From contig CM049310.1 of the NCBI GenBank assembly GCA_026874595.1, positions 6,572,001 through 6,636,000 of the forward strand: 64,000 nucleotides of DNA, read 5' to 3'. A program made the position numbers and the translations under genes. The notes under the pieces were generated by a model that did not search any database, had not been told where the DNA came from, and saw only the letters and a list, made by a program, of their open reading frames with translations. Positions 1,408 to 62,879 of the stretch are shown here, piece after piece (the stretch's first letter is position 1; each line of letters opens with the position of its first letter). The stretch comes from Sipunculus nudus (Eukaryota > Annelida > Sipuncula > Golfingiida > Sipunculidae).

Positions 1408-4400
1408 CTGCAAAGAAAAACAAGGACTGGTACCCTCAATTTTACTCAATGCTGCTTCTGCATATACTTACCATCTTGGCTGGTGACTTTGCTGTACAAT
1501 CAATGATAACGTACCATCCACTACATGTTTAGCATCCAAAGTCATATATAAGTACCTAGCTAAATTAGTCACATGAATGTCAGCTGACAGTCTCAAAACC
1601 AATCTTGTACTGGCATAAATATGATTATAAATAAAAGAAGGCTTCACAAGTCTCAATCAAAGGGTTAAGATATCCAAGATGAACATGTACAATGTCAAAC
1701 AATGAGTTAGTATTTCAGAAATTGTAGCTTTAGTATAAATTTTAATCAATATGGGCCAAGAAAATTGAAATTTTACATATATTAATAATATTTTAAAAAG
1801 CTGATTGGGCCAATTATGTTCAAATGTTTGCATGCTGACAGGATATGTATGTAATTGAGGTAGATTTTATTCATTTTGTGATCCAACAATAAATATTTGT
1901 TCTATAGGCTTGTAAACACAGAAGAGGGTGACTTTTTGAGTGCTTAAAGTTTATTTTTATCAACACAGTTATCAGTATAAGGGTCACTGTGATTTAATTT
2001 AAGGTTTGCAAGAAGATTTTACCATAACCTGTCTGGATTTTAAGCAAGAACTAGGCTATTGGTTACAATTTCTGTTCTGCATATTGAGAGCCGGCCAACG
2101 GCCAGAGGGAAGAACAAGGGACAAAGATAGTTAACAATCACTGAAAAACAGCTGAGTAAAAACTAGTGCATCACAGCTATTTTTGTATCATACTACCTCA
2201 ACTGGACTAACAGAATGCAGAACAAATAGGTCTGACCAAGAACTGTCAATATCAATGTCATGGATAAATATATAGACAATCTGACATGCACTCAGCATAC
2301 AGATAATCCAACAAGCACTCACCTGCAATCTTTATCTATCTGTAGCAGCATTTCATTGTCCTTGAAGTACTGGCTCCAGTTACTTTCTGGATTTGGGTTG
2401 AGAGGCTGTAAGAGATATCATGTTAAAGCATGAAAGAGCTTATAGTTATATACAGCTGAAACCATTTTAACTGTTTCAGTGGGTCTCAGGTAAAATTATT
2501 TTTAAACTTCTCTTTTATACCACAGTTGGCATACAGTGATATGACATGTGTTATAGAATGGTTTGGATTGTTGATTTTGGTGATGGTTTCTTTTGTATGA
2601 ATGTAAGTGATCTTCAATTAAGAATTTTTATATTGTGCAATGAGGGACATACACTAAAATATTACCAAGGACAGCACTGTTGGCAAGTTTCTGCCATTGT
2701 CACTTCTGCCATGGTTTCTGCCAGCAGTTGCCAGGATGGCAGAGATACCTTTCTGTCCTCGTTTCTGCCATAATGGCAGAAAGACCCTGATAACTGTGAT
2801 GAAATGTATAAAGTGACCCAGGGATCATGACGCTCAGATGATGGACAGACAGACAGACAGACATACAGACAGAAGGACGATGAACAAAAGGTGATCGCTA
2901 TAGCTCAAATGACTTATAGTCTGCTGAGCAAAAAATGATAGGACATCTATTTGATGAGTCTAAGACACAATCAACTTAGATATTAAACAGTGGCTTTTAA
3001 AATTTAATGCATGTAACAGTGTAGGTCTAATCATTGTATCTGCCAAAACAGATTTTGTGAATACTATGTTTTCAGTCAGTAGAACTCCTCAGTAACTGCT
3101 GGGCAGAATTTTACGAAACCCAGGATTATGTTCGGGTCACATGTGAACTACTGCGCCCCGATTTTGTTTTGACCTCTGACCTTTCCTCTCTACCCAGCGT
3201 CCATTTGTGCGTCTGTTACCACACATAAACCCAAATATCTAAGGAACCGTTTGACCGATCAGGAAAATTTTTTTGTCCAAATGTAGCCCTTGGCTAGCTT
3301 TATAACATACACAAAAAATGGTGGTGCCACCTGCAACCATGTTTGCACAGTGTCCATCTGTTCATCTGCCTTGGGTTAAAAACATTCATATCTCTGCAGT
3401 GGTTTGACTAATTGACCTGAAATTCGGCATGCGTATACATCCTGGATAGCTTCTTTGATTTTATGACAGGTGGTGCCACCTGCATTCATGTTCATGCTGC
3501 AGACATCCATGCTTATATCTCAGGACTGGTTTGATGTATCTTCCTGAAAATTTGCATGTGAATAGATCTCACATAGCTTTTGTTCTATCGCAAAACTGGT
3601 AGCGCCACCTGCAACCATTTTTGCACAGTGTCCATCTGTTTGTCTGCCGTGGGATAAAATCACTCATATCTCGGCAGTGGTTTGACATATCTGCCTAAAA
3701 TTTTGCATGTTAATACATCCCGGACAACTTTCTTGATTTTATGACAGGTGGCGCCACCTACATTCTAGTTTTATACTGCAGACATCCAAGCTCATATCTC
3801 GGGAACCCTTTGACCGACTGGCCCAAAATTTTGCATGTGTACAGATCTCACATAGCTTTTTATCATACACAAAATTTGAGGGGCCACCTGCAACCATTTT
3901 TGCACAGCGTCAGTCTGTTTGTCTGCCATGGGCTAAAATCACTCATATCTCAGTAGTGGTTTCACTTATGCAGACATCCATGCTAATATGCAGCACACGT
4001 CACTCTATTTCCCCTTGCCACCTGTATTCTAGTTGTTGTATGATTAATGATAGGCAGAGCACCCTTGTGTTTGTGTTTATCAGTGATTATTTAAGCCATG
4101 TAAGTCCATATATAGGTCTAGGTAGCTAAACTGCACGACCATATCCTAGCTGAAACATATCTTGTAACGTAGTCCATTGCCCATGCTGACCCTTAAATTA
4201 TAGGCACATCAATCCCTCTCTGTGTCAGTCACTGAACCAGAACAAGTTGTGCATTATCTGCTCACACACATAATGAGCCTGCAGATAGTTTTAAGGTACA
4301 GACATTAATAAACATTACCCTATTATATTGTCTTCTATTACTCTTATTATTGCAACTATTTTTATCTGTTACTATTACTTTGAAATGCTGTTATTTTTTA

Positions 4401-13400: not shown

Positions 13401-16400
13401 CTGCTCTTTTAAGAGGTAGGTAATTCAACAGAAGCTGAAAATCAATACTGATAGGATAAAATTAATTTCATTATCAGCCAGTAAAGGCTTTAGCCAAATA
13501 CCATAAAATATACACCATACAGAAAGTAAGAGTTTTTAAGCCAGTTGAGTATCATATTTATACAATATTTGCAAACAAACAAAAATTATTATGGTAGTTA
13601 TGAAAACAATAAATAAACAAGGGACCCATGGGTCACATCGCTCAGCTGAATTTTGGAAAATATTAGTAACTGCAAAATATTTTTATTTCTTTTGGTTTTT
13701 CATGTATATTATCATTAGAAAAGCTATGAGAAAATGGCCCTGCTAAAATGAAACTCTGTAAATTATAGAATAATGGACATGAGCTAAACCATTTAGTAAT
13801 GCACCAAGGGAACAAATAGGCCTATGGTAAGTGTTATATAACAGTAACATTTCATAAACAAATAATGTGTGTACGTAATTAAGTTTTCATAAGTTAAATA
13901 TATGGCCATGAGTTGAAAAAAATTAATACCACAAAGTTTGACCAATATTCCTAATTTTAAATCTAAGTTAACAGTGTCATTCACACCTAGGCCCCGCCAA
14001 CTTTAACAGATATGAGTGAAATGCTATAAAGTATTTATATCTTCTTAAATCTCCCCCATTCCCTCCCTGTGAATGGTGGTTTTGTTAGTAAACTGTTGTG
14101 AGCTTTTCTGTATTAATGAGAATTTTCTCTGTTAAAGTTTATACGCCAGAGTAAGCCAACCGAAAATTTTCCCTTATTGGGCCTATTATTGCCCATCCCG
14201 CCTCGTTCCCGTGTATCTAGGTCACACTTCTGTTTCCTGTAATCACATTTTTCGAAGGCGGAAGGAAGTGGACTGGGAGGGAGTGTTGTTTGTAATACAG
14301 AAAAGCTCACAACAGTTTACTAACAAAACCACCAATCACAGGGAGGGAATGGGGGGGTTTTATTACGTAAACATAATTGTGAGCTGTTTCTGTATTAATG
14401 AGAATAGAACAGATAGACCTTGGGGAGAGGACACCTACCTGTAACGACGGAATGAGGGGAACCTCAGTGCTGGGACGGCGCAGAAGACGACGTCGCCGGG
14501 GGAACAGACAGAGAGGACGATGATGGCCTGGAAAACTGGAGGACCTCACCTGCGGCGATCACAGGGCCCAGGGAGTAAAGGCCCGAAGCTTGTAGCTGAA
14601 CATCCTTGAGATAAAAGCGGGTGAATGTAGACGGGGACTTCCAGTAGCCCTTCTTTGATCTACGGTGAAATCCCTGAGAAGTGGCCCAACGATGTAGAAA
14701 GAGCTCGAATGTCATGAGCCTTGATGTAAAGTTGCTCTAAGGTTGATGGAGAAGCCGATTCATAGGCGGCGACAATAGTAGCTTTGAGCCACGCACTAAT
14801 GGTGATAGGGCTAATTTCCTTATTGGAAGTGGTGACTTTTGTTGAAACAAACAACTTCTTGCGCCCTCCCCCCCCGCCCCTGTAAAGAATGAGTAGCTTT
14901 AATAACGTAACGCACGAACCGGGCAATTGGTAGCCCCATAACGGTATTGACTGTTAGGGAGGGCTGAGCTGACGGAGGATCATCGAAATTTTGGTTCTTT
15001 CTATAACAAAGCCTACAGGCCTAATGCGAACCTGTGCATATGGATATACACCAGGTATAACGCTTCAATGCTGAACCACTACTTTTCATATATATGAACA
15101 ATGCAAGTACTAAACATTTTGAACAAGAAACAATACACAAACATCACTGCTGAAATTCTGGCAAGGGTGCACACAACACAAAAATTATTGTAGGTGGCAC
15201 CACCAGTCTTGTATATGACAAAGCTATTTGACATGTATAAATATGCCCAATTTCAGGCTGATATATCAAATTCCTCCATAGAATTAAGCAGGCACATACA
15301 CTTTGCAAAAGTCATTGTGGATGGCGACACCTGTCTTGTGAACGAGAAAGCCATTAAAGACACATAGTCAGGTCAGAATATCAAGCCTTGAGTCTGATGC
15401 ACCGGGCTGACCAGGCTTTGGTGAGAAAGGCTGTTGCCCCCGAGTGTACTGTGACAAATTACTGGCTCAGGCTACTGCACTGAGTGAACTCTTGACCTGC
15501 ACCTGGCTAGACTGAGTGAACTTTTGACCTGTACTTGGCTGCACTGAATGAACATGAGGTAATCACATGATACTCATGAGGTGATCACATGCTACCCATG
15601 AAATGATCACATGCTGCCCATGAGGTGATCACATGCCTTGTGCTTGGCTGCACTGATTGAACTCTTGGCCTAAATCTGGCTGCACTGAATGAACTCTTGA
15701 TCTGTTGCCAAATCTGAAACAGTTGGCAGTTTCTCAACCTATTCAAGAAACACACAATCTTGGCCTGTTATGTAACTCTGCTAAAATTTATCCAACACAA
15801 ACCATTTGAACAAACTTGAGAAGGCTCGCCTCTGGGATCATTTCTGTAAAATATTGAACAATTTGGCTGGACTCTTTAAAACAAGAAGTTTTTATCAGCT
15901 TTTTCCCTGTAAAATCTAAGTAAATGCAGATAGCAAAAATAAGCTGAATCCATCAACATTTGATATATGACTGATAACTGCATAAAATTTGGGGATGGTT
16001 GCTCCTGCTATTCCTGAGAAATTATGAATAATGTACAGATGATATGTAATATAATAAATCTACATTTTTTAAAAGCTTTTAAAAAACATTCTTGTCAATA
16101 TTTTCCATAGATATTCTAAAATCTAAATGTCTAGAGGCATGATGTAATGGATGCTGATAAACTGGTGCTAGGCTAGATGTATCTGCTTCACACAGCTAAC
16201 ATATATGGTAAAATGACTCAATTCAATCTTTATAATTCAGCCAAAATTCATTTTTTGGAACCATAAAAGACGATTATTATAAGAATGATTCAGGGAATTA
16301 TTCTTGCAAAATATTAAACAAACTGGCCTCAGTATCATCAGTTGAAAAACGTTTCGTAGGTTTAGAACTCGTATGGGAAAATACAGCACAATGGCAAAGT

Positions 16401-19400
16401 TCAGCTTCCCATAACTCAGCCAAAAATCATTGAACCAAAACCATTTGAACAAACTTGAATTATCAACTTCTAAGGATAATTAATGTGTGAGATTTAAGAA
16501 TGTGGCCCAGTGGTTTTTGAGAAGAAGATTTTTGTAGCCACTTAGCTAACATGGGCTGTTATGGCATATGACTAAATTCAGCTTCCCATAACTCGGCCAA
16601 AAGTCACTGAACTGAGACCATTTGAACAAACTTGAATTATCAACATCTAAGGATAATTAATGTGTGAGATTTAAGAATTTGGCCCAGTGGTTTTTGAGAA
16701 GAAGATTTTTGTAGCCACTTAGCTTACATGGGCTGTTATGGCATATGACTAAATTCAGCTTCCCATAACTCAGCCAAAAGTCACTAAACTGAGACCATTT
16801 GAACAAACATGAATTATCAACATCTAAGGATAATTAATGTGTGAGATTTAAGAATTTGGCCAAGTGGTTTTTGAGAAGAAGATTTTTGTAGCCACTTAGC
16901 TTACATGGGCTGTTATGGCATATGACTAAATTCAGCTTCCCATAACTTAGCCAAAAGTCACTGAACTGAGACCATTTGAACAAACTTCAGAAAGCACTAC
17001 CCTAGGATCATTTCTGTGCGATATTAAACAATTAGGCCATTTCGTTTCATAGAAGAAGTTATTTGTAGCTGTCAGTATGATAAGGGCACTGATGACCCCC
17101 GTACAAAAAAGGCTGATGCAGGTGGCGCCACCAATACCTCAATTTCAGATATGACTCATGTGACCAACATTGGCATAAAATTTGGTGATGATAGCTCAAG
17201 CCATTTCTGAGATTCTAATTTTAGTATGCTTTTTTGGACAGATGACTAAGTTCAACTTCCAGTAACTCGGCCCAAAAATCACCGAACTTAAACCATTCGA
17301 ACAAACTTGAGAGAGATTGTTCTAGGAATCATTTCTGTAAAATATTGGACAATTTGGCTGAACAGATTCAGAGAAGAAGATTTTTTAAGCTTTTTTTAGC
17401 TTTTTCCCTTTAAAATCTAAGAAAATGCAGTTAGCCAAAAAATAAGCAAAATCTGATAGAGTTTTTTAGATGACTAATTTTATGCATAAGATTTCGTGAT
17501 GCTAATTCTTGCCATTTTCAAGATAGTATGGGTTAACGTACAGACGACGGACGACACCACACCATCGCATAAGCTCACAGGTTTGCTAAAAATCCGGAGG
17601 AAAATGGAGGGTGGCTGACGAACCGTCGGCCTCAATTTGTGTGAATTTCGAATCAGCCACAAGGGCATGAAGCTCAGAGCGGCGACCGGCAGAGGCAAGA
17701 GCGAGGAGGAAAACCGTTTTCCAAGACAAATGGAGAAGATGGGCCGAACGCAGGGGCTCATAAGGGGGTTCCCGGAGGTGACGTAAGACGACGTCCAGGC
17801 GCAAGGAAGGCGCAACATACCGAGGACGAGACGCGCGGGCATGAACCCCCTTGAGAAAATCCAACACCAACGGATGAAGGACGCGATCGTGACCGAGCGG
17901 ACGGAGTACGGACAGCAGGGCGGCACGATAGCCACGCAGAGACGGATAGGATAAATGTTTATCCTGCAGTAAAAACACGAAAAAATCCAAAACCTCTGCA
18001 AGCGACGGAGCTAATGGGGAGATTCCCCGGGAAGATGCCCACCTCGGTGAAGAGACGCCATCTGGAGTCATAGATGCGGTCCGAAGAACGGCGAGGGGGA
18101 GCCGAGGCAAGGAGAGCAGCCGGACTTGAAATGCCCTGATCCTTGAGGGGTCCGATGAGAGCACGCATGCGCACAGAGGGCACGACTGAAATGGGGGACG
18201 CGCTCGTGGGAACGATGGGAGAGCGATCTGGAGCAGTAGAGACCACACGGACGGCGGGGTGTCGGGGAGACGGTCGTGAGGGTGCCGTAGACACGTTGCG
18301 GTAGGCTGGAGAACGGGGGAGGACGCCCCAGGCGAGCGAAAATACTCCGAACAACCGGGAGCGGAAGGAGCACCAGTGGAGGAGGAGACGCAGGGCGACA
18401 GGAAAGTGCGTCGGCAAGAATGTTCGACACGCCCGGAAGATGCGACGCATGAATCGAGGCCCAGAGAGAGATGCATAGATCGAACAAATGGTAGGTCTCC
18501 GGAATCAGTGAGGGAGACCGAGTACCGCCCTGCCTGTTGATATATGCCACGACCGCAGTGTTGTCAGTCCAGACGAGAATGTGACGGTCGATCAAGTGGG
18601 GGGACCAGCTGGAGATCGCCATTGGGCAGCACGCAGTTCCAGGATATTGATATGCAGCAGACGTTCCGACGGGGACCATATCCCTGAGGCGCGAAGATCA
18701 GCCATATGGGCCCCCCAACAGAGGAGAGACGCATCGGTATATACGGTGCAATCGACTACCTGAGAGAAAGGAACACCCCGCAGGAGAAAGGGAAGGTCCA
18801 GCCAGGGAGGAAGGGACCTGCACAGGAGCCGAAACTGGAGGACCGTAGGACGAACCGATGTTAAACGGAGAAGGCCGTGACGGCGCAGGAGAGACTGAAC
18901 CAGACGTAGGAACAGTCGGCCCAACGGGAGAAAAGTGGAGGCCCAGTTGAGGGCGCCGTGCAGAGAAGCCGCAGTCCGAGAGTCTACACGGCGCAGTGCG
19001 AGAAAGGAATGAATCTGCCGGCGGAGTTTGAGAGCAAAATCACGTGGGAGAGATGCTGTGCTGGACGCAAAATCTAGCGTGACACCCAGAAATTGCAGGG
19101 ACTGGGTGGGAGTGAGAAGGGATTTCTCCGCATTGACAAGAAAGCCAAGGGCCTGAAGTAAGGCGAGAACCCTGGAGTGATGAGACAGTAATAGGGAGCG
19201 ATTGGCCGCATGGACAAGCCAATCGTCCAGATAAGGGAGCACAGAAATGCCCTGTGATTGGAGATAACGCGTGACCATGTGAACAAGCATGGTAAAAATC
19301 CAAGGAGCAACATTGATCCCGAACGGGAGGGCCCAGAATCGAAAAACGCAGTTCTGATATGCTAAACGAAGAAATGGTTGAGACAATGGATGGATTGGAA

Positions 19401-28600: not shown

Positions 28601-29700
28601 TATGTGGCATCAGGGATGCCAATTAATCTTCTCATATATGTGCAATTTTCACCAAAAACAGATCTACGGATGGATACGAGAGGAAAGGATTGTAGATGGC
28701 CCAAGCAGTCTTGTTTAGAAGATAAACCATTCAAAGGTCTATGGACATGCAATTTTTTAAGGGAATTCATCAACCACTCCTGAGAATAAGGCAGTATATC
28801 CCAAGGAAGCAAAAAGGTAGGTGGCGCCACCTGTCTGATCTATGCTAGATCTACTCTATGTGAAAATGATTTATAGGTCGCGCCACCAGGCTTGTGTACA
28901 AGATGGAGGTACACATGTGAAATTTCAGGCTGATACGTTACACCAGTCTTGAGATGAACTGATGGACGTATTCTAAAAATACGTGATTACAGGTGGTGCC
29001 ATTAGTCTCGTGAATGTGAATCTGCCCAAGACGGATAAACATACAAAATTTCATGCCGAGATACCGAACCACTACTGAGAAAAAGTGCATCAAAGTATTC
29101 TACAAAACAGAAAGGCATGTGACGCCACCTGTGTGGTCTACAATAAAGCTTTCCAAGACGGATAAACTTGCAAAATTTAGGCTGATACATTTATCCACTC
29201 CTGAGATATGAGCGATTTTAACGAAAAGCAAACGAACAAAATAACGCGAAAACAATTGCAGAGCGCACCCCATTCGTGAATACAAGATGGAGAGATCCAA
29301 AATCTATGAACATGAACAATTTCAAGCCAATATGGCAAACCACTCCTGAGAAAAGGGCATTAATGTATTCAGTGAAAACGCTTGGAAAGGTAGGTCGTGC
29401 CCCCTGCCTGGTCTACGAGAAAACTCTCCAAGATGGGTAAAATGCCAAATTTCAGACCAATACATTGAACCATTCATGAGGTATGAGCAATTTTTACTCA
29501 AGGCAAACGCGTGAATGGACGCCACGCGAAAACTATTCCAGATGGCGCCACCAGTCTTGACTACTAGATTTAGGTATCCAGTGTCTATAGACATGCCTAA
29601 TTTAAAGCCAATACATTGGACCACTATTGAGATATGGGCCATTATCACTAAGACACCCAGGTTCATACTGCACGAAAAGGATTGCAAGTGGCGCCACTAG
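28600..29700. repeat. Palindrome repeat family S3 (copy 3)
   Basis: Degenerate tandem half-units, each with a GCGCCAC core (clear at 28820 as GGTGGCGCCACC, others mutated) and phrases such as AAATTTCAGGC and CTCCTGAGA. The run of open frames on the minus strand reflects the repeat unit and not a gene. Confidence 0.6.
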
Positions 29701-30770
29701 CCTATGTTAGCATCAGTTCACATGAGACCAAATAATTAATTATGCTGGGTTTCGGAAAGATCGACCCAAGTGTCTGAGAGGAATTCTTTGGAAACGAACT
29801 CGGAGGCAAAGGCGGAACCCGCGTTTAAAACATAGTATCCACAAAACTCTGTTTGGCCGATATAATTAAAGGTCGAACCCCAGATTTGGACCACCTTATT
29901 TAGAGCCATTCTGTATGCTCTTCAGTGAAGGACCGATTTAGTTTCTATGGAAAACCTTTAATTTACAAAATTACACAGAAATGGTTAAACGTTTATAATG
30001 AGAATACCATACAGACAAATATCACATTCCAGAAAAAAAAAATATTGATTAAAGTAGCCCCGTCAAATCAAAGAATTTCTTTAAGATTGTCTCGGTCATC
30101 AGGGACAGACACAGAATCTTTAAGCAAAAGGGGGCTCAGCACTCTGGCACAGGATACATATGGACCGGGAGTGCTAGAAAACTTACTTTGTACATAACTC
30201 TCGCATGCAGAACTTTATGGCAGAAAGTGAAACGACGCATATCCAGTGTTGCTACTTGCATTAAGCGTTTATGCCACTATTTCGCCATTAAGCGTTTATG
30301 AACATAAATCCAATTATTTATAGGTAAAATTTAACCTTTCCTGTATATATTTATTTTATTGACACTCTGTACGTTTAAAAGAGTTAGACCACACTAAAAA
30401 TATTATTCATTATCTACATTTTAGTAATCAGTGCTCACACAATAAGCGAACAGCATGTGCATTTTCAAGACACAGAAACATCGCCACGCATACGTAAATT
30501 ACACGATGTAACCACATGTATATCGATTTATTTTAGTTGGCAGACTATTCAGCTACAGGTATATCCTAAATAATATAAAATTGAACTGATATATTTATTA
30601 GTTTCACAAGCATGCACACAGTTGGTGTAAAGTGTCCGATAGATGGCGATGTGATAGACCTTTCGCGAATTTATCTCTAATTAGTTCACTCTGTGAACTT
30701 ATGCCATGGCGCAGCGTCCGCCCTCCGCTGTCCACTGTCAACCGTCCACCGTCTGTTACCAAATATCTCA
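29701..30770. other. Unassigned sequence before satellite S1
   Basis: AT-rich, with one degenerate S1-like start near 30760. No gene recognised. Confidence 0.4.
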
Positions 30771-31640
30771 ACAGCCACAGCAGCTACCTTCATGAAACTT
30801 TGCAGAATTACTGATCATGGGATGGACATGCAAAGATAAGCTTTTGGTGGCGCCACCTATGACTGCTAAATGATTTTGACCTCCAGGTGGTGCCACCTGT
30901 GTTGACCTACTTTCTGCGGGACAAAATGATTCTTTCTACTTCTTCCAAGATAAGTCACAAAGTATTGATATTTTGGCCTTCATATTATAACCAACAGATC
31001 CTAAGAGGAAGGGGAATAATTTGAGTATAAATTCAGTCAAGTCATTTTCAAGATGGCGTCTCTACGTAACTTCAGATTCTGTCGATCGCAAAATATGACA
31101 GCTTGATGTGTTTCTAAACATAATGTATTGTCTGTTACCAAATATCTTAGGAACTGCTGCAGCCTTCAGTTTCAAATTTCACAGGAATATTGATCATGTG
31201 ACTGCTAAATGATTTTGACCTCCAGGTGGCGCCACCTGTGTTGACCTACTTTCTGCGGGACAAAATGGTCTTTTCCTCTTCTTCCAAGATAAGTCACAAA
31301 GTATTGATATTTTGGCCTTCATATCATAGTCAACAGTTCCTTAGAGGAAGGGGAATAATTTGAGTATAAATTCATCCAAGTCATTTTCAAGATGGCATCT
31401 CTACGGAACTTCAAATTCTGTCGATCGCAAAATATGACAGCTTGATGTGTTTCTATACATGATGTATTGTCTGTTACCAAATATCTTAGGAACTGCTGCA
31501 GCCTTCAGTTTCAAATTTCATAGGAATATTGATCATGTGACTGCTTAATGATTTTGACCTCCAGGTGGCGCCACCTGTACACTGTTAACCTACTTTCTGC
31601 GGGACAAAATGGTCTTTTCCACTTCTTCCAAGATAAGTCA
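30770..31640. repeat. 339-bp satellite S1, left block
   Basis: Tandem units with the landmark TCTGTTACCAAATATCTTAG (31131 and 31470, 339 bp apart). The palindrome GGTGG(C/T)GCCACC sits at 30886, 31225 and 31564, again 339 bp apart. The block ends inside a unit at the target site of DNA transposon A. Confidence 0.9.
31635..31640. other. Target duplication of transposon A, left (AAGTCA)
   Basis: Identical to 35808-35813; the intact S1 unit has a single AAGTCA here. Confidence 0.75.
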
Positions 31641-31735
31641 TAGGGGCGTAGCCAGAGGGGGGCCGCAAGGGGCCATGCCCCCCCCCCGGTCGCATCCATT
31701 ACTCGCCGTCCTTTCATAATTTCATTAATCTAATA

Positions 31736-31777
<42 letters not shown>

Positions 31778-32537
31778 TACATATATATGTATTAAATTGC
31801 CTTTGCTATTAGTGGCGGATCCAAAGGGCGCCCCCCCCCCGTTGAGCTGCAATATATCTCATTTTATCTAATTTCCAAATTTTCGTGATTAATTTTCGTA
31901 TTTCATATTTTTTTATCAATTATCAATTAGATTATATTAAAGTTATTCGCAGTTTATTACTTTTAACTTTATTTGTTGAGAATAAGGATATTTATGAACA
32001 GCTGCAGAACAAATGCAGAGCACCAAGCCCTGCTTTGGGTCGACCGTGAACAATCTCCCGGCTCCTCTGGTGATACCGGTACTCGAACTCGCGGTCTGTG
32101 CTCTTAGGAGTCCTGCGTGCTGTCGAGACCACGAAACCCGGTAAAATGCAAAGTTTAACATAAGACTTCAACATATCAGTTATTTCACTCCGAGCATTAC
32201 ATTTAAAAGATAATATTTTGCAAGTTTCAAACGTAAATGCGCCTTTGGGCCAACGACTTGTCTGAAAACGATTAAAATTTTATATCCTCATTTTGAAGAA
32301 ATATAAATATTAAATATTGACCCTTCCTACAGTTTGACTACATAACGCAAAGACATAAGGGAACAGTTTTTCAGGAACAGGAAATCCTCATTATTTTGTG
32401 AAAATTGCCTCAAAATGTCCTCTTTACATTACATATTCAAAAAAGTTCCCAATATGGGAGGGGGATACCCCCTCCCATACCCTCCCCATGTACCTGTAAC
32501 TAACCTTAATGAAACCATCGTACATAATTGAAAATAA

Positions 32538-35500
32538 CAAGTGACCCAGGGGTCATGACGCTCAGCTGACCAGGAAGACATTGACAAAAGTAATTTTATC
32601 ATCTGAATGCCAAATTTGAATGAAATACTTTTTCCAAACTTGACCTTTTGTATAAAATCATCCAATATTCATTGGGGTACTATGGAGCTCTGTAGCATGA
32701 AGGATATGGATAACAGACACCTATTTTCAAGGTTTACAAGATGACTTTTCAGGGGTCTCCCAGCATGTCAAAAAATAAAATTCTAGGTCCAGTTATTATG
32801 ATTTGTGCCCTGTTAACAAATCCAAATGTTTATTCTGGGGGGTATTTCAAAGCCACATAGGATGAAGGATATGGGTAACAGAGATGTAATTTCAGGTGCA
32901 CAAGGAGACTTTTCAGGGGCCTCCCAGCATATCAAGAAAGGAGATTCTAGGTCAAGTCATTATAATTTGTGCTCTGTTAACAGATGACCAAATCTTTATT
33001 CTGGGGAGTACTTCGGAGCCCCAGAGCATGAAGGATATGGGTAACAGGGACCTTATTTCGGGTTTCCATGTAGACCTTTTATGGGCTTCCCTGGAGGTGA
33101 GGACAGAAGATTCTAGGTCCAGTCATTATGATTTGTGCCCTGTTAATATATGACCAAATCTTTATTCTGGGGGGGGGGGGGGTACTTCAGAGCCCCATAG
33201 CTCACAGAATATGGGTAACAGGGACCTTATTTCGGGTTTCCATGTAGACCTTTTATGGGCTTCCCTGGAGGTGAGGACAGAAGATTCTAGGTCCAGTCAT
33301 TATGATTTGTGCCCTGTTTACAGATGACCAAATGTTTAAAGATCACAAAAGTAGAGAAAAAAAATCGTAAAAAATAAAAAAAATATAGGTGGCGCCACCA
33401 ATCTCCAGAAATTGATGAAACACTCCATGATCAATATCCATGCAAAGAATCATGGTGATTAATGCATTAGTTGTTCAGATACTTGAGCTTTTGTATTAAA
33501 TTTTGCATTATTCTGGGGGGTACTTCAGAACCCCATAGCTCGAAGAATATAGGTCACAGTGACCTAATTTCAGGTTTACAAGGAGAATTTCCATAGACCT
33601 CCCAGGATTTAAGTAAGAAGATTCCCGGTCTAGCGGTTACGATTTGTGCCCTGTTAACAGACAGACGCCTGGATGGCCGGACGGACGACGGAAAAAAGGT
33701 GATCCCTACAGCTCAGATGACTTTCAGTCAGCTGAGCTAAAAATTGAAAAAATACAGGTGGCGCCACCAGAATGCAGAAACTGATGAAACATTTCATGAT
33801 TAATATCCATGCAAAGAATCATGGTGATCAATATAATAATTGTTCAGATACTTGAGCTTTTGTATCAAATTTTCCATTATTCTGGGGGGTACTTCCGAGC
33901 CCCATAGCTCAGAGGTTATGGGTAACAGAGACCTAATTTCAAGTTTTTAAGGAAACTTTTCATGGGCCTCTCAGCATGTCAAGAGAGAAGATTCTAGGTC
34001 CAGTTGTTACGATTTGTGCCATGTTAACAGATGACCGCATCTTATGAGGTCTCAAAAAAAGAGAAAAAAATTCGTAAAAATAAAAAAAATACAGGTGGCG
34101 CCACCATACTGCAGAAACTGATGACACATTCCATGATCAATATCCATGCAAAGAATCATGGGGATCATTGCAATAGTTGTTTAGATACTTGAGCTTTTGT
34201 ATCAAATTGGCCATTATTCTGAGGGATACTTCAGATGACTTACAGTCAGCTGAGCTAAAAACACTTAATGGTCAATATCCATGCAAAGAATCATGATGAT
34301 CTCCGTATTAGTTGTTCAGATACTTCAGCTTTTGTATCAAATTGTCCATTATTCTGAGGGATACTTCAGAGTCCTATAGCTTGAAGGATATGGGCAACAG
34401 AGACCTAATTTCAAGTTTCCACAGGCACTCTTCATGGGCCTCCTTGCATGACAAGAATGAAGTTTCTAGGTCCAGTTGTTGCAATTTGTACCCTCTTGAT
34501 AGATAACATAGGTGGCGCCACCAGTCTGCAGGAACTGATGGAACATCTCATAATCAATATGTATGCCAAAAATCATGACCATCAGTGATGTAGTTATTGA
34601 GATATTGAAGTTTTTGTATGAAATTTTAGACTACTCTGGGGGGGGGGGTACTTTGGGGCCCCATAGCTCGAAGGATATGGGTAACAGAGACCTAATTTCT
34701 GGTTTCCATGGAGACTTTTCATAGGTCTTCTAGTGTGTCGAGAATGAAGATTCTAGGTCCAGTCGTTACGATTTGTGCCATGCTAACAGATGACAGCATC
34801 CTTAAAGGTCTCAAAAATAGAGGAAAAAATCGTAAAAAATCGAACAATAAAGGTGGCACCACCAGTCTCCAACAAGTGATGACACATCTCATGATCAATA
34901 GTTATGCCACAAATCATGACCATCAGTCAAGTAGTTAATGAGATATTGAAGTTTTTGTATGAATTTTTTTACTTTTCTTGGGGGTACTTTGGACCCCCAT
35001 AGCTCAAAGAATATGGGTAACAGAGACCTAATTTCTGGTTTCCATGGAGACTTTTCACAGGTCTCTCAGTGTGTCAAGAATGAAGATTCTAGGTCAAGTC
35101 TTTATGATTTGTGCCTTGTTAACAGATGTTTACATTTTGAAAGGTCTCAAAAATAGAGAAAAAAATTCGTAAAAAATCGAAAAATACAGGTGGCGCTACC
35201 AGTCTTCAGGAACTGATGGAACCTCTCATGATCAATATGTATGCCAAATATCATGACCATCAGTCAGGTAGTTAATGAGATATTGAAGTTTTTGTATGAA
35301 ATTTTGGACTTTTCTGGGGGGTACTTTGGGGCCCCATAGCTCGAAGGATATGGGTAACAGAGACCTAATTTCTGGTTTCCAAGGAGATTTTTCATGGACC
35401 TCCCAGGATGTCAAGTAAGAAGATTCCAGTTCTAGCGGTTACGATTTGTGCTGGTTAACGGACAGACAGACGGACAGACGGACAGACAGACAGACGGACA

Positions 35501-35557
35501 GACGGACAAAGAGTGATCGCTATAGCTCAGATGACTTTCAGTCAGCTGAGCTAAAAA
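32538..35557. mobile_element. Hairpin-ended element carrying satellite S2
   Basis: The left end reads AGTGACCCAGGGGTCATGAC then GCTCAGCTGAC. The right end has (GACAGACG)n and the hairpin AGCTCAG...CTGAGCT (35524-35552) followed by an A run. Comparison with copy B of the host transposon, which lacks this block, defines the insertion limits. Internal hairpins also occur at 33710-33738 and 34228-34256. Non-coding. Confidence 0.7.
33050..35450. repeat. Satellite S2, roughly 340-bp units
   Basis: The palindrome GGTGGC(G/A)C(C/T)ACC occurs at 33388, 33757, 34094, 34511, 34852 and 35189. Spacings are 369, 337, 417, 341 and 337 bp. Other landmarks per unit are CCATAGCTCGAAGGATATGG, GATTCTAGGTCCAGT and GATTTGTGCC. 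The unit sequence does not resemble S1 outside the palindrome. Confidence 0.85.
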
Positions 35558-35613
35558 CTAAACACTACACTAAAATATATAACGTATAGTAATAATAATG
35601 TTAGTAATAATAG

Positions 35614-35671
<58 letters not shown>

Positions 35672-35807
35672 ACATATATACGTATATATAACCGTTTTCA
35701 TAGTACCCATACATGCATATTAGCCCCCCCCCCACACACACACACACTTTCTTGCTCTGCCAGTGCTCATGGGCCCCTCCCCTCCCTCAAACCTGGCTAC
35801 GCCCCTG

Positions 35808-35934
35808 AAGTCACAAAGTATTAATATTTTGGCCTTCATATCATAGTCTGCAGTTCCTTAGAGGAAGGGGAATAATTTGTGTGTAAATTCAGTCAAATAA
35901 TTTTCAAGATGGCGTCTCTACTAGCAGGGGCGTA
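35808..35934. repeat. S1 satellite remnant between transposons A and B
   Basis: The middle of one S1 unit (TTTTGGCCTTCATATCATAG through TTTTCAAGATGGCGTCTCTAC), cut on both sides by transposon insertions. Confidence 0.85.
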
Positions 35935-36580
35935 GCCAGGATTGAGGGAGGGGAGGGGACCATCATCAGTGGCGGATAAAGAAAAACGGGGGGGGGGGGG
36001 GGGGTAGGGGCGCTAATTTGCATGTATGGGCAATTGGAAAACGGTTATATATACAAGTATATATATATATATATATATATATTATTACTATTATTATTAT
36101 TATTGTTATTATTATAAATTTTTACTATATTTTATATATTTTCGTGTATGAATATAATTTTTTTTTATTTTCAATTATGAACCATGGTTTCATTAAGGTT
36201 AGTTACAGGTACATGGGGAGGGTATATTGGGAAATTTTTGAATATACAATTTAAAGAGGACATTTTTAGGCAATTTTCACAAAAAATAAGGATTTCCTGT
36301 TCCTGAAAAACTGTTCCCTTATGTCATTGCGTTATGTAGTCAAACAGTTGAGAGGTTCAATATTTAATATTTATATTTCTTCAAAATTAGGATATAAAAT
36401 TTCAATCGCTTTCACAACGAGTCAATGGCACAAGAGCACAATCACATTTGTAACTATCAAAATATTATCTTTTAAATGTAATTCTCGTGGTGAAATATAA
36501 CTGATAAACTGAATTATTATGTTAAACTTTGCATTTTGCCGGGTTCCGTGGTCTCGACAGCACACGGTACTCCTAAGAGT

Positions 36581-36588
36581 TCAACACG
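36581..36588. other. LINE target duplication, left
   Basis: TCAACACG, matching TCAACACAG at 37820-37828 apart from one base. Confidence 0.6.
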
Positions 36589-37819
36589 TAACTTAGCATG
36601 TGAAGATGTTAAAGACAATGACTTGTAATGCACCTTTCTGGGAGGAAATTATGAATTATTGGTGTGACTATAATTATTATAACCCAGATTCATATGAAGA
36701 TATCTTGTCGCAATGTATTTGGTTTAATTCTCATATAAAAGTACAAAACAAAACGTTACTATATAAAAATCTGTATAATAGTGGAATTTTATACATTAAA
36801 GATCTGTTAAAACAAACAAAAATACAGTTCATGAGTTATAAAGAAATATGTTATAAATACAGATGTAAAATTGATTTTCTCAGTTATGCTAGTTTACTAA
36901 AAGCAATTCCAAACAAGTATAAACTAATTATCCAAGGGTTAATAAAGATATGCTAGCACCAATAGAATTAGACATTAATTTAAAAGAATTTCTAAACAAA
37001 GAAAATACAAAACAGATATACAATAGTATTGTTTACAAGCATAAAGTTAAACCTGAAAAAGCATTAAAAAATGGTCAGACGAATTAAACATCTTGGAAGA
37101 CAATGTCTACCAGGGTTTCTCCAAACTTTATAAAACCACAATATCATCAAAATTACGAATGTTCCAATATTATATATTACATAGAAAACTTACATTAAAC
37201 CCTTTTCTACATAAAATACGTATTATTGATACAAGCAAATGCACTTTCTGTAAAGAAGAAAATGAAACTCTTGCACACATTTTTTGCGAATGCCCATTTA
37301 CAGTGATATTGTGGACGGACATTTGGAGAACCTTAAATGCGAATTCTTCAAACACAGTGACCATTAAACCATCAAATGGCAATGTGCTACTTGGTAACAG
37401 TAAATATGTTTGGCTGAATATGCTTTCTCTTGTTGTAAAGAAATATATATATAATTGCAGATGTTACAAGAAGAAACCAGACTTGAAGGGTTTTTTGCAA
37501 TTCATAACTGGAATATATTTAATAGAAAGAATGATAGCAATCAAAAGAGGTAAACCCAACGAACATAATAATAAATGGTCAAATCTTGTTTGCATCTTAA
37601 AGACATAACAGTATTTTGTTATTTTTTATGTATGTATCACTTTTTTCTATTAACAAACATGGACAAAAAAAGTAAACTGCAACCTGGCAGATGTAAAACT
37701 TTTAAAAAATTATAATATTGAACTTTGTTATTATAAACTTGTTTTTCCATCTCATTTACATAATGTATAACACGTTCTGGATTCATTTGTTATTGTTTTG
37801 TAATTTGTTACGTCATGTA
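36589..37819 (+). mobile_element. 5'-truncated LINE insertion
   Basis: Defined by comparing transposon copies A and B and by near-identical target duplications (36581-36588 and 37820-37828). It carries only the end of an ORF2-type protein and about 210 bp of 3' tail without a poly(A) run. Confidence 0.72.
36600..37608 (+). pseudogene. LINE ORF2 C-terminal remnant with zf-RVT-type knuckle
   Basis: Pieces in more than one frame: 36600-36956 (FWEEIMNYWCDYNYYNP through IDFLSYASLLKAIP), a linker in another frame, then 37093-37608. The last piece contains SSKLRMFQYYILHRKLTLNP and CTFCKEENETLAHIFCECPF, the CxxC..H..C knuckle found after the RT in L1/Tx1-type and related LINEs. Frameshifts occur near 36950 and 37075. 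Neither endonuclease nor RT domain is left. Confidence 0.72.
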
Positions 37820-38169
37820 TCAACACAGATTGCGAGTCTGAGTACCGGTATCACCAGAGGGAGCCGTAAGATTGTTCACGGTCGACCCCAACCAGGGCCC
37901 GGTGCTCGATCGATCTGCAGTTGTTCTGCAGCTGTTAATAAATATCCTTATACTCAGTTAAAAAATTTGAAAGTAATTGTAACTGCAGATACTTTAAATA
38001 AAGTCTAATTCCTTATTAATCATAAGAAACATGAAAAACGAAACTTAATCACTAAAATCGGAAATATGATAAAATGAGAGATTTTGCAGCTCAACGGGGG
38101 GCCGCGCGCCGAAGGCGCCCCCCTCTGGATCCGCCACTGATAGCATATATTTATCCGCCACTGATTTAA

Positions 38170-38218
<49 letters not shown>

Positions 38219-38324
38219 ATTAAATTAAGTGAAATTCGACGGCGAGTACTGGATACCAGCGGGCTGGGGGGGGGGGGGGCATGGCCCTCTGCGCCCCCCC
38301 CCCCCTTCCTTGGCTACGCCCCTG

Positions 38325-40200
38325 TTCTACAGAACTTCAAATTGTGTGGGTTGCAAAATTTAGCAACTTGATGTGTTTCCATAAAGGATGTATTGTCTGT
38401 TACCAAATATCTTAGGAACTGCTGCAGCCTTCAGTTTCAAATTTCACAAGAATATGGATCATGTGACTGCCAGATGATTTTGACCTCCAGGTGGCGACAC
38501 CTGTGTTGACCTACTTTCTGTGGGACAAAATGGTCCTTTCCACTTCATCCAAGATAAGTCATAAAGTAATAATATTTTAGCCTTCATATTATAGTCAACA
38601 GTTCCTTAGAGGAAGTGAAATAATTTGAGTATAAATTCAGTCAATTCATTTTCAAGATGGCGTCTCTACGGAACTTCAAATTGTGTCGATTGCAAAATTT
38701 GACAGCTTGATGTGTTTCTATACATGATGTATTGTCTATTACTATCTTAGGAACTGCATCATGGGACTGCTAAATAATTTGACCTGCAGGTGGCGCCACC
38801 TGTGTTTACCTACTTTCTACAGGTTTTAATGGTCTTTTCTGCTTTTTCCAAGATATGTCACAAAGTATAAATACTTTGGCTTTCATATCATAGTCAACAG
38901 TTCCTTAGAGGAAGAGGAATAATTTGAGTATAAATTCAGTCAAGTGATTTTCAAGATGGCATATCTAAGGAACTTCAAATTGTGTCAATTGCAAAATTTG
39001 ACAACTTGATGTGTTTCCATACAGGATGTATTGTCTGTTACCAAATATTTTAGGAACTGCTGCAGCCTTCAGTTTCAAATTTCACAGGAATATTTATCAT
39101 GTGACTGCTAAATGTGGCGCCACCTGTGTTGACCTACTTTATACAGGCTGTTATGGTCTTTTCTGATTTTTCCAAGATATGTCATAAAGTATAAATACTT
39201 GGGCTTTCATATCACAGTCAGCAGTTCCTAGGAGGAAGGGGAATAATTTGAGTATAAATTCAGTCAAGTCATTTTCAAGATGGCATCTCTACGGTACTTC
39301 AAATTGTGTGGATGGCAAAATTTGACAACTTGATTTGTTCCTTTACATGATGTATTGTCTGTTACCAAATATCTTAGGAACTACTGCAGCCTTCAGTTTA
39401 AAATTTCACAGGAATATTGATCATGTGACTGCTTAATGATTTTGTCCTGCATGTGGCGCCACCTGTGTTGACCTACTTTATACAGGCTGTAATGGTCTTT
39501 TCTGATTTATCCAAGATATGTCATAAAGTATAAATACTTGGGCTTTCATATCACAGTCAGCAATTCCTAGGAGGAAGGGGAATAATTTGAGTATAAATTC
39601 AGTCAAGTCATTTTCAAGATGGCATCTCTACGGAACTTCAAATTGTGTGGATGGCAAAATTTGACAACTTGATTTGTTCCTTTACATGATGTATTGTCTG
39701 TTACCAAATATCTTAGGAACTACTGCAGCCTTCAGTTTAAAATTTCACAGGAATATTGATCATGTGACTGCTTAATGATTTTGTCCTGCATGTGGCGCCA
39801 CCTGTGTTGACCTACTTTATACAGGCTGTAATGGTCTTTTCTGATTTTTCCAAGATATGTCATAAAGTATAAATACTTGGGCTTTCATATCATAGTCAGC
39901 AGTTCCTAGGAGGAAGTGGAATAATTTGAGTATAAATTCAGTCAAGTCATTTTCAAGATGGCATCTCTACGGAACTTCAAATTGTGTGGATGGCAAAATT
40001 TGACAACTTGATTTGTTCCTTTACATGATGTATTGTCTGTTACCAAATATCTTAGGAACTACTGCAGCCTTCAGTTTAAAATTTCACAGGAATATTGATC
40101 ATGTGACTGCTTAATGATTTTGATCTCCAGGTGGCGCCACCTGTTTAGCTACTTTCAGCAGGCTGTAATGGTGTTTTCTGCTTTTATCCGAAATATGTCA
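38325..40200. repeat. 339-bp satellite S1, right block
   Basis: Landmark TCTGTTACCAAATATCTTAG-like at 38395, 38735, 39034, 39358, 39697 and 40036. Spacings are 340, 299, 324, 339 and 339 bp, the shorter ones caused by visible deletions. The last three units are nearly identical to each other, pointing to recent local amplification. The palindrome appears in every unit, one base altered in the TGTGGCGCCACC variants. Confidence 0.9.
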
Positions 40201-40379
40201 GTAAGTATTTATTTGTTATAATCCACAAAAACAGAGTTTCCTCCAGGACCCTTGGACTGATCTTTACTTGTTCCCTCACCTATGTAGTTGTAGGTAACAA
40301 TGATGGAGAACCTTTCTGTGCAGTACAAACCTGGGTTTCTTTTATATAACAACCCTCAATCTCCGGAGTGGTTCAATAT

Positions 40380-41170
40380 ATTTAGCTGAAATTTTGCATA
40401 TTCATAGATCTTGGACTCCTCCATCTTGTATTCAAGACTGGTGGCGCCATCTGCAATCGTTTTCCCATGGCGTCCTTCGGTAAATTTGCTGTGGGTGAAA
40501 ATTGCTCATATCTCAGAAGTGGTTGAAGGTATTGGTCTGAAATTTGGCATGAAAATCCATCTAGGAAAGTTCTCTAGTAAACCAGACAGTAGGCACCACC
40601 TACCTTCCTGTTTTTATAGAATAACTTAATGCCTTTTTACTGAGGAATGATTTGCTGTATTGACCAGAAATTGCGCATGTCCATAGATCTTGGACTCCTC
40701 AGACTTACACTCAAGACTGATGATGCCATCTGCAATCATTTTCCTGTGGCATCCATCCGTACATTTTCTTTGGGTGAAAATTGCTCATATCTCAGGACTG
40801 GTTCAATGTATTGGTCTGAAATTTGTCATGTCCATCCATCTTGAAAAGTTTTCTTGTAAACCAGACAGGTGGCGCCACCTACAATACTTTTTGCGGTGTG
40901 TCCAACTTTGCATTTGCCATCTGTTCGTCTTAGTGGTTGTTCTGTGTATTGGGTTGAAATTGTGCATGTCCATAGATTTTCGTCACCTCCATCTCGTAAA
41001 CAAGACTGGTGGCGCCATCTGCAATCATTTTCCTGTGGTGTCCATTCATACATTTGCTTTGGGTGAAAATTGCTCATATCTCAGGAGTATTGGTCTGAAA
41101 TTTGGCATGTGCAGTCATCTTGGAAAGTTTTCTCATAAACCAGATAGGTGGCGCCACCTACCTTGTGCAA
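40380..41170. repeat. Palindrome repeat family S3 (copy 4)
   Basis: GGTGGCGCCA(C/T)CT at about 40439, 40868, 41007 and 41146; the last two intervals are 139 bp, the half-unit length. Phrases such as AAAATTGCTCATATCTCAG recur. The 169-codon plus-strand frame here is a product of the repeat. Confidence 0.65.
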
Positions 41171-41599
41171 TAGGACAATGTCTACTTGGAAAGGAGTGAA
41201 TAGTATTTTCACATTCATTTTTTTTAATCACATGCCAAATTGCACAGTAATTCACAGAGTGAACATTAGACCCCTGGGTCTCTTGTTTGTAAAGACTGAT
41301 GGTAATATTAAACAAGGCCTACAGGCCTAATGCGAACCTGTGCAATGTTTGGGAGAATGAATGGAGGTTTATTTTTAAAATTTAATATTGATCCTCCTAT
41401 GTCCTGCATATCTACCTTAGTCATTCTGATTTCAGCAAACTGGACGTTTTGGACCTGCAAGTTTCGGACTAAGACATTTTAAAACTAGAATACGGGCAGT
41501 CAACAAGCGACTACGTGTATCCACCGAATTCAGAGTGGGACGGGTGAAGTGAGGCATGGATTGAGTGGCAAGGGGAAATAGAGTGAGGTGTGTTGCATA

Positions 41600-42180
41600 T
41601 TAGCATGGATGTCTGCAGCCGACATGTGTATGTAGGTTGCACCACCTAAAACAAAATCCAGAAAGCCGTCCAAGTTTTATACAAATGCAAAATTTTTGGC
41701 AGATAAGTCAAACCACTACTTGTATATGAGTGATTACATCCCACAGCAGACAAACAGAAGGATGCTGTGCAAAAATAGTGGCAGGTGGCGCCACCAATTT
41801 CGTGATTGATTAAGAGCTATGTTAGATCTATAGACATGCAAAATTTCAGGGGGATATGTCAAACAAGTCCTGAGATATAAGCCTGAATGTCTGCAGTGTA
41901 AATATAAATGTAGGTGGGGCCACCTGCCACAAATTTGAGAAAGCTGTCCAAGTTGTATACACATGCAAAATTTTAGGCAGATAAATCAAACCAGTACTTG
42001 CATATATGAATGATTTTATCCCACAGAAGACAACCAGAAGGATGCTGTGCAAAAATGGTTGTAGGTGGTGCCATTAATTTTGTGTATGATAAAGATCTAT
42101 GTAAGATCTGTTCACATGCAAAATTTTAGAAGGATACAGCAAACCAGTCCTGAGATATAAGCCTGGAACTCGGTTAAAAA
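41600..42180. repeat. Palindrome repeat family S3 (copy 5, opposite orientation)
   Basis: Reverse orientation of the copy at 3190-4010, with GGTGGCGCCACC near 41786 and degenerate versions near 41919 and 42064. Confidence 0.6.
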
Positions 42181-42520
42181 TCTAAAACTAAAACTGAACT
42201 AGAACCATTCGAACAAACTTGAGAGAGATTGTTCCAGGGAACATTTCTGTGAAATTTTGGACAATTTGGCTGGACAGTTTCAGAAAAGAAGATTTTTAAA
42301 GGTTTTTAAGCTTTTCTCCATTAAATCTAAATAAATGCAGATACCCAATAATAAGCTCTAGGGCACCAAGTTTCACGTGTGACTAATTCTTGCATGTAAT
42401 TTGGAGCTACTTGTTCAGACGGTTTCTGACTTACAGCCATGGACGGCGGACAGCCAACCTTGGACGGCAGACGGACGCCGCCGCGCCATCGCATAAGCTC
42501 ACAGGCTCGCTAAAAATATT
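42180..42520. repeat. Partial copy of the family nested in the DIRS element
   Basis: Matches about 17280-17590: GAACCATTCGAACAAACTTG, GACAATTTGGCTG, and the end CCATCGCATAAGCTCACAGG before CTCGCTAAAAAT. Only the terminal part of the family is present. Confidence 0.6.
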
Positions 42521-45846: not shown

Positions 45847-46502
45847 TCATTTCTTTGACTCCATCTCTTCCAGCTCTTTCTTCTTGGCTTTTCCTGCTAA
45901 AATAGCTTCTTTGAATAATGACAAGTAAAGTTTGATTGCACTCGGAGTGTCATCATTGCCAGGTACTGCGTATGTGATCAAACGAGGGTCTGTTGCTGTA
46001 TCCACTATCCCAACTGTGGGAATACTCAATTTAGCAGTTTCTATAGTTGCAACATGTGGCTCAAAGATATCATTGTGACAGTTCATAAATATACACAGGT
46101 CAGGCAGCCTGGTTTCAGCACCAAACTGCACAGTAGAGTTTGTGAAAGTACCGCCCTTCCACCTGCGGCAGTGCGAATATTCTCCTACATCCACTGCTGT
46201 ATTTTCCACCCATGGTATGCTCTGCTGGTGGCGTGTCAAGAACAGTATAATGCCACCCCGCATGGCAATGTGTGCTGTGAAATTAAGTGCATCTTGTAAC
46301 AATGGAACAGTCTGTTCAAGATCTATTATATCAACTCCTAACCTTGAGCCACTGATGTATGGCAGCATGTAAGGATCTCGAAGGCCCTCTTTGTGCCCCA
46401 AATGTACCCGGGCTTCAAAAAGGTCCTTAAGGGTAAACAGTTTCTTCACCCCAAATAGATCTTCATTCTGCAACAGGCTTTTCTCTGTTTCCTTCTTGAC
46501 AT
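45847..46502 (-). CDS. MRPS2: MRPS2 coding exon 2 (conserved core, stop)
   Basis: Acceptor GCTTGCAG then AT, which completes an Asp codon; stop at 45847-45849. Contains the whole uS2 fold and a Lys/Glu-rich tail. Confidence 0.94.
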
Positions 46503-46974
46503 CTGCAAGCATACATATAAACATTTTACATATGAAGGAAACACAAATACTGTAACATAGTAGATCTACAGCTAAAAATATTAAATTAAATGACTGACAT
46601 ATGCAAATGAAATTATATAATCACAGTTTAATCTAAATAAATAAGTGACATGTATATAACTTATTAGGTAAATGTAGACCAAGACTGGTCAAAGAAAATC
46701 CATCCATATATTGGAGGTTTGGTAAATACACAAAACATGTATATATACACAGCTACGCCAAATGGTACATTCAAGAATTTCTAAACAACTGTTATTATTT
46801 TTCATATGTCAGTGCAGCTTTTCTCACAGACAGGATATATATATATGCTCTCTCACCTTTGACTGTCAGCTGTTCCTCTTGCTTTGTTGCTGCTGCTGTA
46901 CTCAGGTGACAAGCTGTTGAAGCTTGAAGCCACCTGTGAGAACACTGCAGTAATGACCGCCAGCTCTGCAACAT
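45847..46974 (-). CDS. MRPS2: Mitochondrial ribosomal protein S2 (uS2m), two coding exons
   Basis: Coding joins 46974-46857 and 46502-45847: 774 nt, 257 residues, one phase-1 intron of 354 bp. The N-terminus from MLQSWRSLLQCSHRWLQAS is Arg-rich and acid-poor, fitting a mitochondrial import signal. The uS2 core follows: LFEARVHLGHKEG, LPYISGSRLGVDIIDLEQT, LNFTAHIAMRGGIILFLTR, RLPDLCIFMNCHNDIFEPHV, IPTVGIVDTATDPRLITYAV and PGNDD. The protein is part of the small mitoribosomal subunit head. Length compares well with vertebrate MRPS2 (slightly under 300). An acceptor-like ATTACAG ends two bases before the ATG, so a 5' UTR exon probably lies upstream. Confidence 0.93.
46857..46974 (-). CDS. MRPS2: MRPS2 coding exon 1 (start)
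   Basis: ATG at 46974-46972, donor AAAG|GTGAGAG at 46856. 39 codons plus one base, encoding the presumed targeting peptide ending QEEQLTVK. The reading frame upstream of this ATG crosses the acceptor-like site, so upstream ATGs in the genomic frame are not credible starts. Confidence 0.85.
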
Positions 46975-62479: not shown

Positions 62480-62879
62480 ACCACCCCAGAATGTGACTTA
62501 TAATTATATGGATGAAATCTGCCACAGCGAGACCCTGTTGCCGTTATAATTTGCATTGGACCTTCTGGTACAACCAGAAATAGATTACTTGTTACTCTTC
62601 ATAAGTTCTTTCCAAATACATATGCAAGCTCCACAAATAAACAGACATTAAGGTTTCACAGACATTTTGACACAGCAAATGTATTGTTGCATGGGTTTAA
62701 AACAATTATGCAGTATGCGCCTCTGACATAGCCAGAATAAAATCATTGCAAAAGAAAATTCTTCTATAAAATCACAAATCCACAAGGCAAATAGAATGAA
62801 TGTCAGGAGAAGTGAACGTAACAAGCAAAAACACTAAAGCAGCAACATACCCCAGGTTTAGCCACCTGGGTTAAGGAGC

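Follow-up and report, generated by a model that had tools for sequence, protein, structure and literature searches.

Why does a single 12-nt palindrome recur in satellite families that look different from one another, and does it have a significance of its own? The question is raised by the window analysed in the present study, a stretch of 64,000 nucleotides of the Sipunculus nudus genome (assembly GCA_026874595.1, contig CM049310.1, positions 6,572,001 to 6,636,000). The recurrence of the palindrome in the satellites S1, S2 and S3, originally predicted from the letters of the window, was confirmed. The exact 12-mer occupies 15 sites and appeared in none of 100 dinucleotide shuffles, and with up to two mismatches allowed there are 36 sites (shuffles: mean 0.68, largest 4). 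This relaxed search placed the S1 sites at 30846–31575 and 38490–40141, the S2 sites at 33388–35200, and the S3 sites at 3320–3758, 28820–29698, 40440–41158 and 41635–41924; further sites lie at 15193 (one mismatch), 15320 (two mismatches), 17121 (exact) and 21477 (two mismatches). The genome-wide count proposed together with the prediction gave 111,729 exact copies in the 1.43-Gb genome versus 14 copies of the reversed string, a control of equal composition that is likewise palindromic; with one mismatch allowed, the counts were 218,178 and 575. The palindrome is found once per unit or per half-unit. Among the first 100 exact places listed, many spacings fall at 128–131, 147–150, 276–280 and 335–337, which fits the S3 half-units, the S3 unit and the S1/S2 unit. 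A literature search for the letters of the 12-mer yielded, in the portions of text available, nothing beyond a chitinase study.

The arrays at 30.7–42.5 kb are the central repeats of HINE-type elements (non-autonomous Helentrons, pearl-like), three of which have both ends in the window. Element 1 (30684..41281, plus strand) opens with an LF subTIR/IR at 30684–30698 and a degenerate GTCC-type stretch at about 30714–30763, continues with the S1 array and then an S3 array (40379..41161, plus strand, core arm left of the palindrome), and closes with an RF subTIR (41251–41264) and an RF hairpin (41268–41281). The core arm is the flank of the palindrome that is compared between families below. Element 2 (32542..35551, minus strand) has its RF hairpin at 32542–32555 and subTIR at 32560–32570, a microsatellite at 35461–35508 and the LF IR/subTIR at 35525–35551, with a second LF copy at 33727. 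It holds palindrome-free 174-bp tandem repeats (32693–33338), which by eye resemble the palindrome-free half of the S2 unit, and the S2 array itself (33388..35459, plus strand), with units of about 337 bp, one palindrome per unit and the core arm on the right. Element 3 (41315..42510, minus strand) comprises an RF hairpin (41315–41328), an RF subTIR (41332–41342), an S3 array at about 41635–42165, a degenerate microsatellite and an LF subTIR (42500–42510). Subterminal inverted repeats thus occur at both ends of elements 1, 2 and 3 (matching at 14/14, 11/11 and 10/11 nt), and each element has a palindromic hairpin near its 3′ end at the positions given. Central tandem repeats are present in all three, with a microsatellite that is clear in element 2 and degenerate in elements 1 and 3. 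The order is the same throughout: LF subTIR/IR, microsatellite, repeats (ATATCTC-like box, arm, palindrome), RF subTIR and hairpin. Relative to the palindrome, the core arm is on the LF side in each element.

The S1 array (30846..40212, plus strand, 339-bp units, core arm left of the palindrome) had been described as two blocks, at 30.8–31.6 and 38.3–40.2 kb. The presence of the palindrome in each unit holds, but the blocks are really one array interrupted by two inserts, because the unit phase resumes after each of them. It stops at 31640 (phase 71) and resumes at 35808 (66), with 6 bases duplicated; it stops again at 35921 (179) and resumes at 38326 (175), with 5 bases duplicated. Insert 1 (31641..35807, no strand assigned) has the ends AGGGGCGTAGCCAG / CTGGCTACGCCCCT and carries element 2, which is hence nested within element 1; insert 2 (35922..38325, no strand assigned) has AGGGGCGTAGCCAG-like inverted ends and is of the same kind. 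The two inserts, of which the first holds a whole HINE, are related to each other, and both look hAT-like. Elsewhere in the window, all on the plus strand, there are an S3 array at 3295..3966, degraded S3-like units at 28820..29698, two S3-like units with one and two mismatches at 15193..15331 (an RF-like hairpin and subTIR lie upstream at 15009–15036), and an F5-family core with an exact palindrome plus arm at 17121..17231. The minus strand of the window also contains retroelement-like long reading frames at 5931–10373, 17480–21864 and 58942–62497, the last ending in what by eye is a tyrosine recombinase look-alike, and an open frame at 45847–46620 that by eye resembles mitochondrial ribosomal protein S2.

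The relationship between the families was analysed in a sample chosen by the palindrome itself: the first 100 exact places on contig C1 (47 clusters), fetched as 40 stretches. These stretches contained 175 sites with at most two mismatches, which together with the 36 sites of the window made 211; 206 of them had enough flank to be kept, and the 130-nt arms on each side were clustered. Right-arm clustering produced a few large families (S3, S2, F5 and F8) plus small ones, and S1 proved to be the same module inverted, with its matching arm left of the palindrome. The families S3, S2, F5, S1, F8 and F19 were represented by 122, 36, 14, 10, 8 and 2 arms. Seven of the 15 core-arm pairs reached a z of at least 3, the other eight falling below 3 (lowest 0.7); among the 63 control pairs, which joined left with right and left with left arms, none reached z 3 (highest 2.5), and no relation was seen beyond the core arm. 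In gapless, in-register comparison over about 90 nt, the arms of five of the six families showed an identity of 0.470, versus 0.274 ± 0.021 in 1998 shifted registers (maximum 0.366), and the identity per arm block ranged from 0.32 to 0.60. A GAGATAT-like box begins 76 nt past the palindrome in five of the six families and 74 nt past it in S3. The palindrome identity of 1.00 in the arm alignment is a matter of construction, the 12-mer having been prefixed to every arm. The consensus 12-mer read from the units themselves is the exact palindrome in all six families, which is partly a matter of choice, since F5, F8 and F19 were found via exact palindromes.

The view that the families are otherwise unrelated is therefore not supported, since their right arms are similar and in register for about 90 nt. 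Homology over the full length of the units, the finding named in advance as speaking against a functional core, was encountered by half: the arms are homologous over about 90 nt, but the left arms, with none of 63 controls at z 3, are not visibly so. By comparison of their letters, S1, S2, S3 and the other families evidently descend from one module of about 100 bp, the sequence around which has been replaced. Common descent of the different-looking families from one old module, carried in rolling-circle transposons, accounts for the recurrence of the palindrome, and apparently unrelated satellites are joined into one HINE-borne superfamily. Coding constraint on the arm was rejected, identity being flat by codon position (0.50, 0.43 and 0.45). 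A search of 28–43 kb for known RNA families gave six matches, none reaching the gathering score, and the F5 arm, used as the query of a DNA search, found no match, perhaps because its words are too common.

If the families share an ancestor, the palindrome might be no more than a part of the ancestral repeat that happened to survive and that stands out only because the copies were found by it. Both the homology of the arms and the way in which the C1 sample and the F5, F8 and F19 families were picked fit this explanation. Retention was therefore assessed in units found by arm-only profiles, with the palindrome left out. For S2, 71 distinct units were available, drawn from the window and from 16 loci selected for similarity of the arm. 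The palindrome is intact in a fraction of 0.37 of these units, compared with 0.38 for the median and 0.58 for the best of the other 12-mers; per-site means are 0.905 for the palindrome, 0.877 for the arm and 0.80 for the left flank, and the CpG positions of the palindrome are kept at 0.80 and 0.70. The 10 units of S1 gave a similar picture, with an intact fraction of 0.40 (other 12-mers: median 0.40, maximum 0.70) and per-site means of 0.92 for the palindrome versus 0.84 for the arm. In neither S2 nor S1, then, is the palindrome better kept than other 12-mers, as simple descent would have it. Against it stands S3, where 38 units (20 in the window and 18 in four of 32 loci) have the palindrome intact in a fraction of 0.32, no other 12-mer exceeding 0.18. 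This places the palindrome first of 137, despite the decaying CpG inside it. Per-site means in S3 are 0.86 for the palindrome, 0.70 for the arm and 0.58 for the left side, and both halves of the palindrome are kept about alike. The claim that the palindrome is better kept than the rest of the unit is thus borne out in S3 and fails in S2 and S1. S3 is the more divergent family, and the gap in retention between palindrome and arm grows with divergence.

Retention was also assessed in DNA chosen independently of the palindrome. In eight 10-kb stretches taken at preset places, one exact site and five sites with at most two mismatches were found, confined to two stretches (L063 and L064). Arm-profile matches to E 0.05 occurred in L063 only; four of the five have the palindrome at the tested place with no more than three mismatches, and the fifth is partial and lies just past a one-mismatch site at 6786. 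All five belong to one locus. These matches, too, count against chance survival, which we regard as a real but lesser possibility. A sixth arm-profile match (L061, E 0.44) is without the palindrome. In palindrome-blind DNA (the window and 32 loci, 260,513 bases), the F5 profile found five matches, one with an exact palindrome, two with one mismatch and two partial without it, and the F8 and F19 profiles found none. Among 325 arm-profile matches in DNA that had mostly been selected by the palindrome, 34 have more than three mismatches at the tested place; some of these are partial matches with the palindrome just beside, and others, for example at 15964 and in the F5 and F8 loci, look palindrome-free. 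For random 36-nt stretches drawn from the window, three mismatches or fewer were obtained in 72 of 3000. Weak core-like units without the main palindrome were noticed near 780–850 in L005, L020, L022 and L041; another palindrome, GGTCATGACC, stands near the tested place in three of these four loci, and L041 has it too, with a different base following. The idea that the palindrome is a feature of all tandem repeats was rejected: in six unselected stretches it is in no consensus of arrays with a period of at least 100 bp (closest 3 to 6 mismatches).

A common core that persists longer than its surroundings is thus supported in S3 and, with the caveat on how the families were found, between families, where extra retention is probable. 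The genome-wide one-mismatch class numbers 106,449 copies, of which 45,683 are CpG transitions. These observations fit resident copies that decay freely and a constraint acting on source elements and not on each copy. Since inserted copies are free to decay, the host apparently does not protect individual sites; since the sources seem to have retained the palindrome, in S3 as well as between families, it may be required by the element or for amplification of the element.

One such need could lie in the growth of the arrays, if the palindrome promoted breakage or a switch of template and so led tandem units to multiply and to be exchanged. Its presence once per unit or half-unit would suit this, and in the bivalve satellite phBglII400 the breakpoints lie at a 12-bp palindrome in 13 of 16 cases, according to the accessible text of PMC5139131. 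The same text, however, gives no statistical link between junctions and the conserved motifs of BIV160/Cg170. The few junctions read by eye sit some 8–30 nt off in the flanks, and palindrome-free arrays grow too, so that a recombination site appears unlikely. No evidence of cutting at the palindrome was found.

The explanation that we prefer, giving it about an even chance, is that the palindrome is the most constrained box of an old HINE central-repeat module of about 100 bp and probably a site for a two-fold symmetric protein used in amplification. Source elements would keep GGTGGCGCCACC while the arm changes, and resident copies would decay freely after insertion, CpG first. A two-fold symmetric protein, most simply a homodimer, would bind the palindrome in the array, and the bound putative protein would help the element multiply; selection would act on source elements rather than on resident copies. 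Weighing against this explanation are the F5, F8 and F19 results in palindrome-blind DNA, the 34 arm-profile matches with more than three mismatches, the eight arm pairs below z 3, the origin of 20 of the 38 S3 units in the window, and the lack of the palindrome in the shared parts of three autonomous Helitron-like copies. The common binding site in different repeats that had been proposed is, on these grounds, possible. It is also conceivable, although we lean against it, that a symmetric factor reads one exact palindrome common to many HINE families, that the more than 100,000 dispersed sites form one recognition network and that selection on sources fixes 12 bases during satellite turnover. 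Conserved boxes in fast-changing satellites are an old puzzle, for which two explanations become separable here. The clear 12-mer, with its many copies and its constant distance of 76 nt from a second box, provides a defined bait for finding the protein.

The genome contains 143 Helitron_like_N matches, of which at least seven among those listed lie inside open frames of more than 2,000 codons. In 20 kb around each of three matches with long open frames, two have no palindrome site and the third has seven, located at 1468–3921 of the oriented stretch, outside the parts common to the other copies. A general need for the palindrome in Helitron transposition is therefore not supported, as it is absent from the shared parts of the three autonomous copies examined.

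Could the reader of the palindrome be a known protein? The CTCF core consensus is AGRKGGCRSY, with an upstream module CCASY. A CTCF core, AGGTGGCGCC, is contained in the palindrome, and the satellites might therefore spread CTCF-binding sites. At 110,547 of the 111,729 sites (99%), AGGTGGCGCC can be read from at least one of the strands; the remaining 1,182 have no A beside GGTGG on either strand. An ortholog of CTCF is encoded on contig C11 in an open frame of 989 codons, with 56% identity over the zinc fingers, CTCF as the best solved-structure match, and fingers 3 to 5 nearly unchanged. The canonical pattern CCASYAGRKGGCRSY occurs 4,264 times in the genome versus 41 times for the reversed control. 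On a CTCF matrix drawn up for this analysis, the half-site GGTGGC ranks first among 30 permuted half-sites in 7/7 contexts, and the S1 context scores 24.8, above all 282,112 background 19-mers. The contexts of S2, S3, F5, F8 and F19, however, score only 6.3–8.8 on this matrix, near the published mutated CTCF oligo (8.2) and under its wild-type counterpart (15.4; oligos from the accessible part of PMC6925871). A p of 1e-3 is attained by 85% of 115 exact sites but a p of 1e-4 by just 4%, and the upstream half of the motif is missing in five of the six scored families, the full motif being found in S1 only. The S1-type 17-mer has just 831 genome copies, 0.7% of the palindrome count. In addition, S3 keeps both halves of the palindrome alike, a symmetry for which a one-sided reader has no use. 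For most families, the scores on this matrix thus do not support CTCF as a binder common to all, and, judged from sequence, CTCF is unlikely as the common explanation; the S1 arrays are kept as a candidate and a separate, testable case. Satellite units with a CTCF-like site (CTGCCACCAGGGGGAGTGG and similar) were also noticed in another stretch, L065 (C12:25000001-25010000), where 51 19-mers score at least 15 in 10 kb on the same matrix. In one squid, CTCF sites lie at the borders of domains, according to the available portion of a spiralian review (PMC10658181). E2F, whose consensus is TTTGGCGCCAAA, was considered as a further reader and set aside: the inner TGGCGCCA fits and the conserved outer GG/CC do not.

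Several known systems can be set beside the palindrome. Rodent B2 SINEs are repeats that have spread CTCF sites, and the satellites described here are similar in being a repeat family with a CTCF-like core; S1 would qualify by its sequence, but five of the six scored families appear, unlike B2 SINEs, to be without the upstream half of the motif. The CENP-B box is short, is kept across diverging satellite monomers and is thought to bind protein. It differs from the palindrome in being longer, non-palindromic and of a different sequence, and the arrays of the present study are short and dispersed and reside in elements. The accessible text of PMC5139131 mentions satellites with CENP-B box-like motifs.

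The closest parallels seem to come from bivalves. The window elements match the HINE and pearl descriptions in the available parts of PMC7492417, PMC4067079 and PMC5139131, which suggests that their anatomy resembles that of the published bivalve elements. As far as the accessible text of PMC7492417 goes, Cg_HINE of Crassostrea gigas has a subTIR and IR, a GTCY/GTCC-type microsatellite, central satellite-like repeats, a 3′ subTIR and a palindromic hairpin, an end-to-end anatomy that the window elements share. In one Cg_HINE group, two conserved segments are common to otherwise dissimilar monomers; an internal palindrome common to many families, as found here, is not described in that portion of the text. 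The bivalve satellites BIV160/Cg170, in the part of PMC5139131 available, likewise have divergent monomers with two well-conserved motifs, and related repeats occur in pearl elements. Their monomers measure about 160–170 bp, unlike the 140, 280 and 337–339 bp observed here, and the motifs are compared by description, not by letters. The same part of that report places a conserved palindrome close to the repeat junction of DTC84, an element of the pearl family in Donax trunculus; the palindrome of S. nudus is likened to it by description and not by sequence. Bivalve satellites with two conserved motifs and a pearl element with a conserved palindrome were thus already known from that source, and it is beside these, by description, that the palindrome of the S. 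nudus HINE elements is placed.
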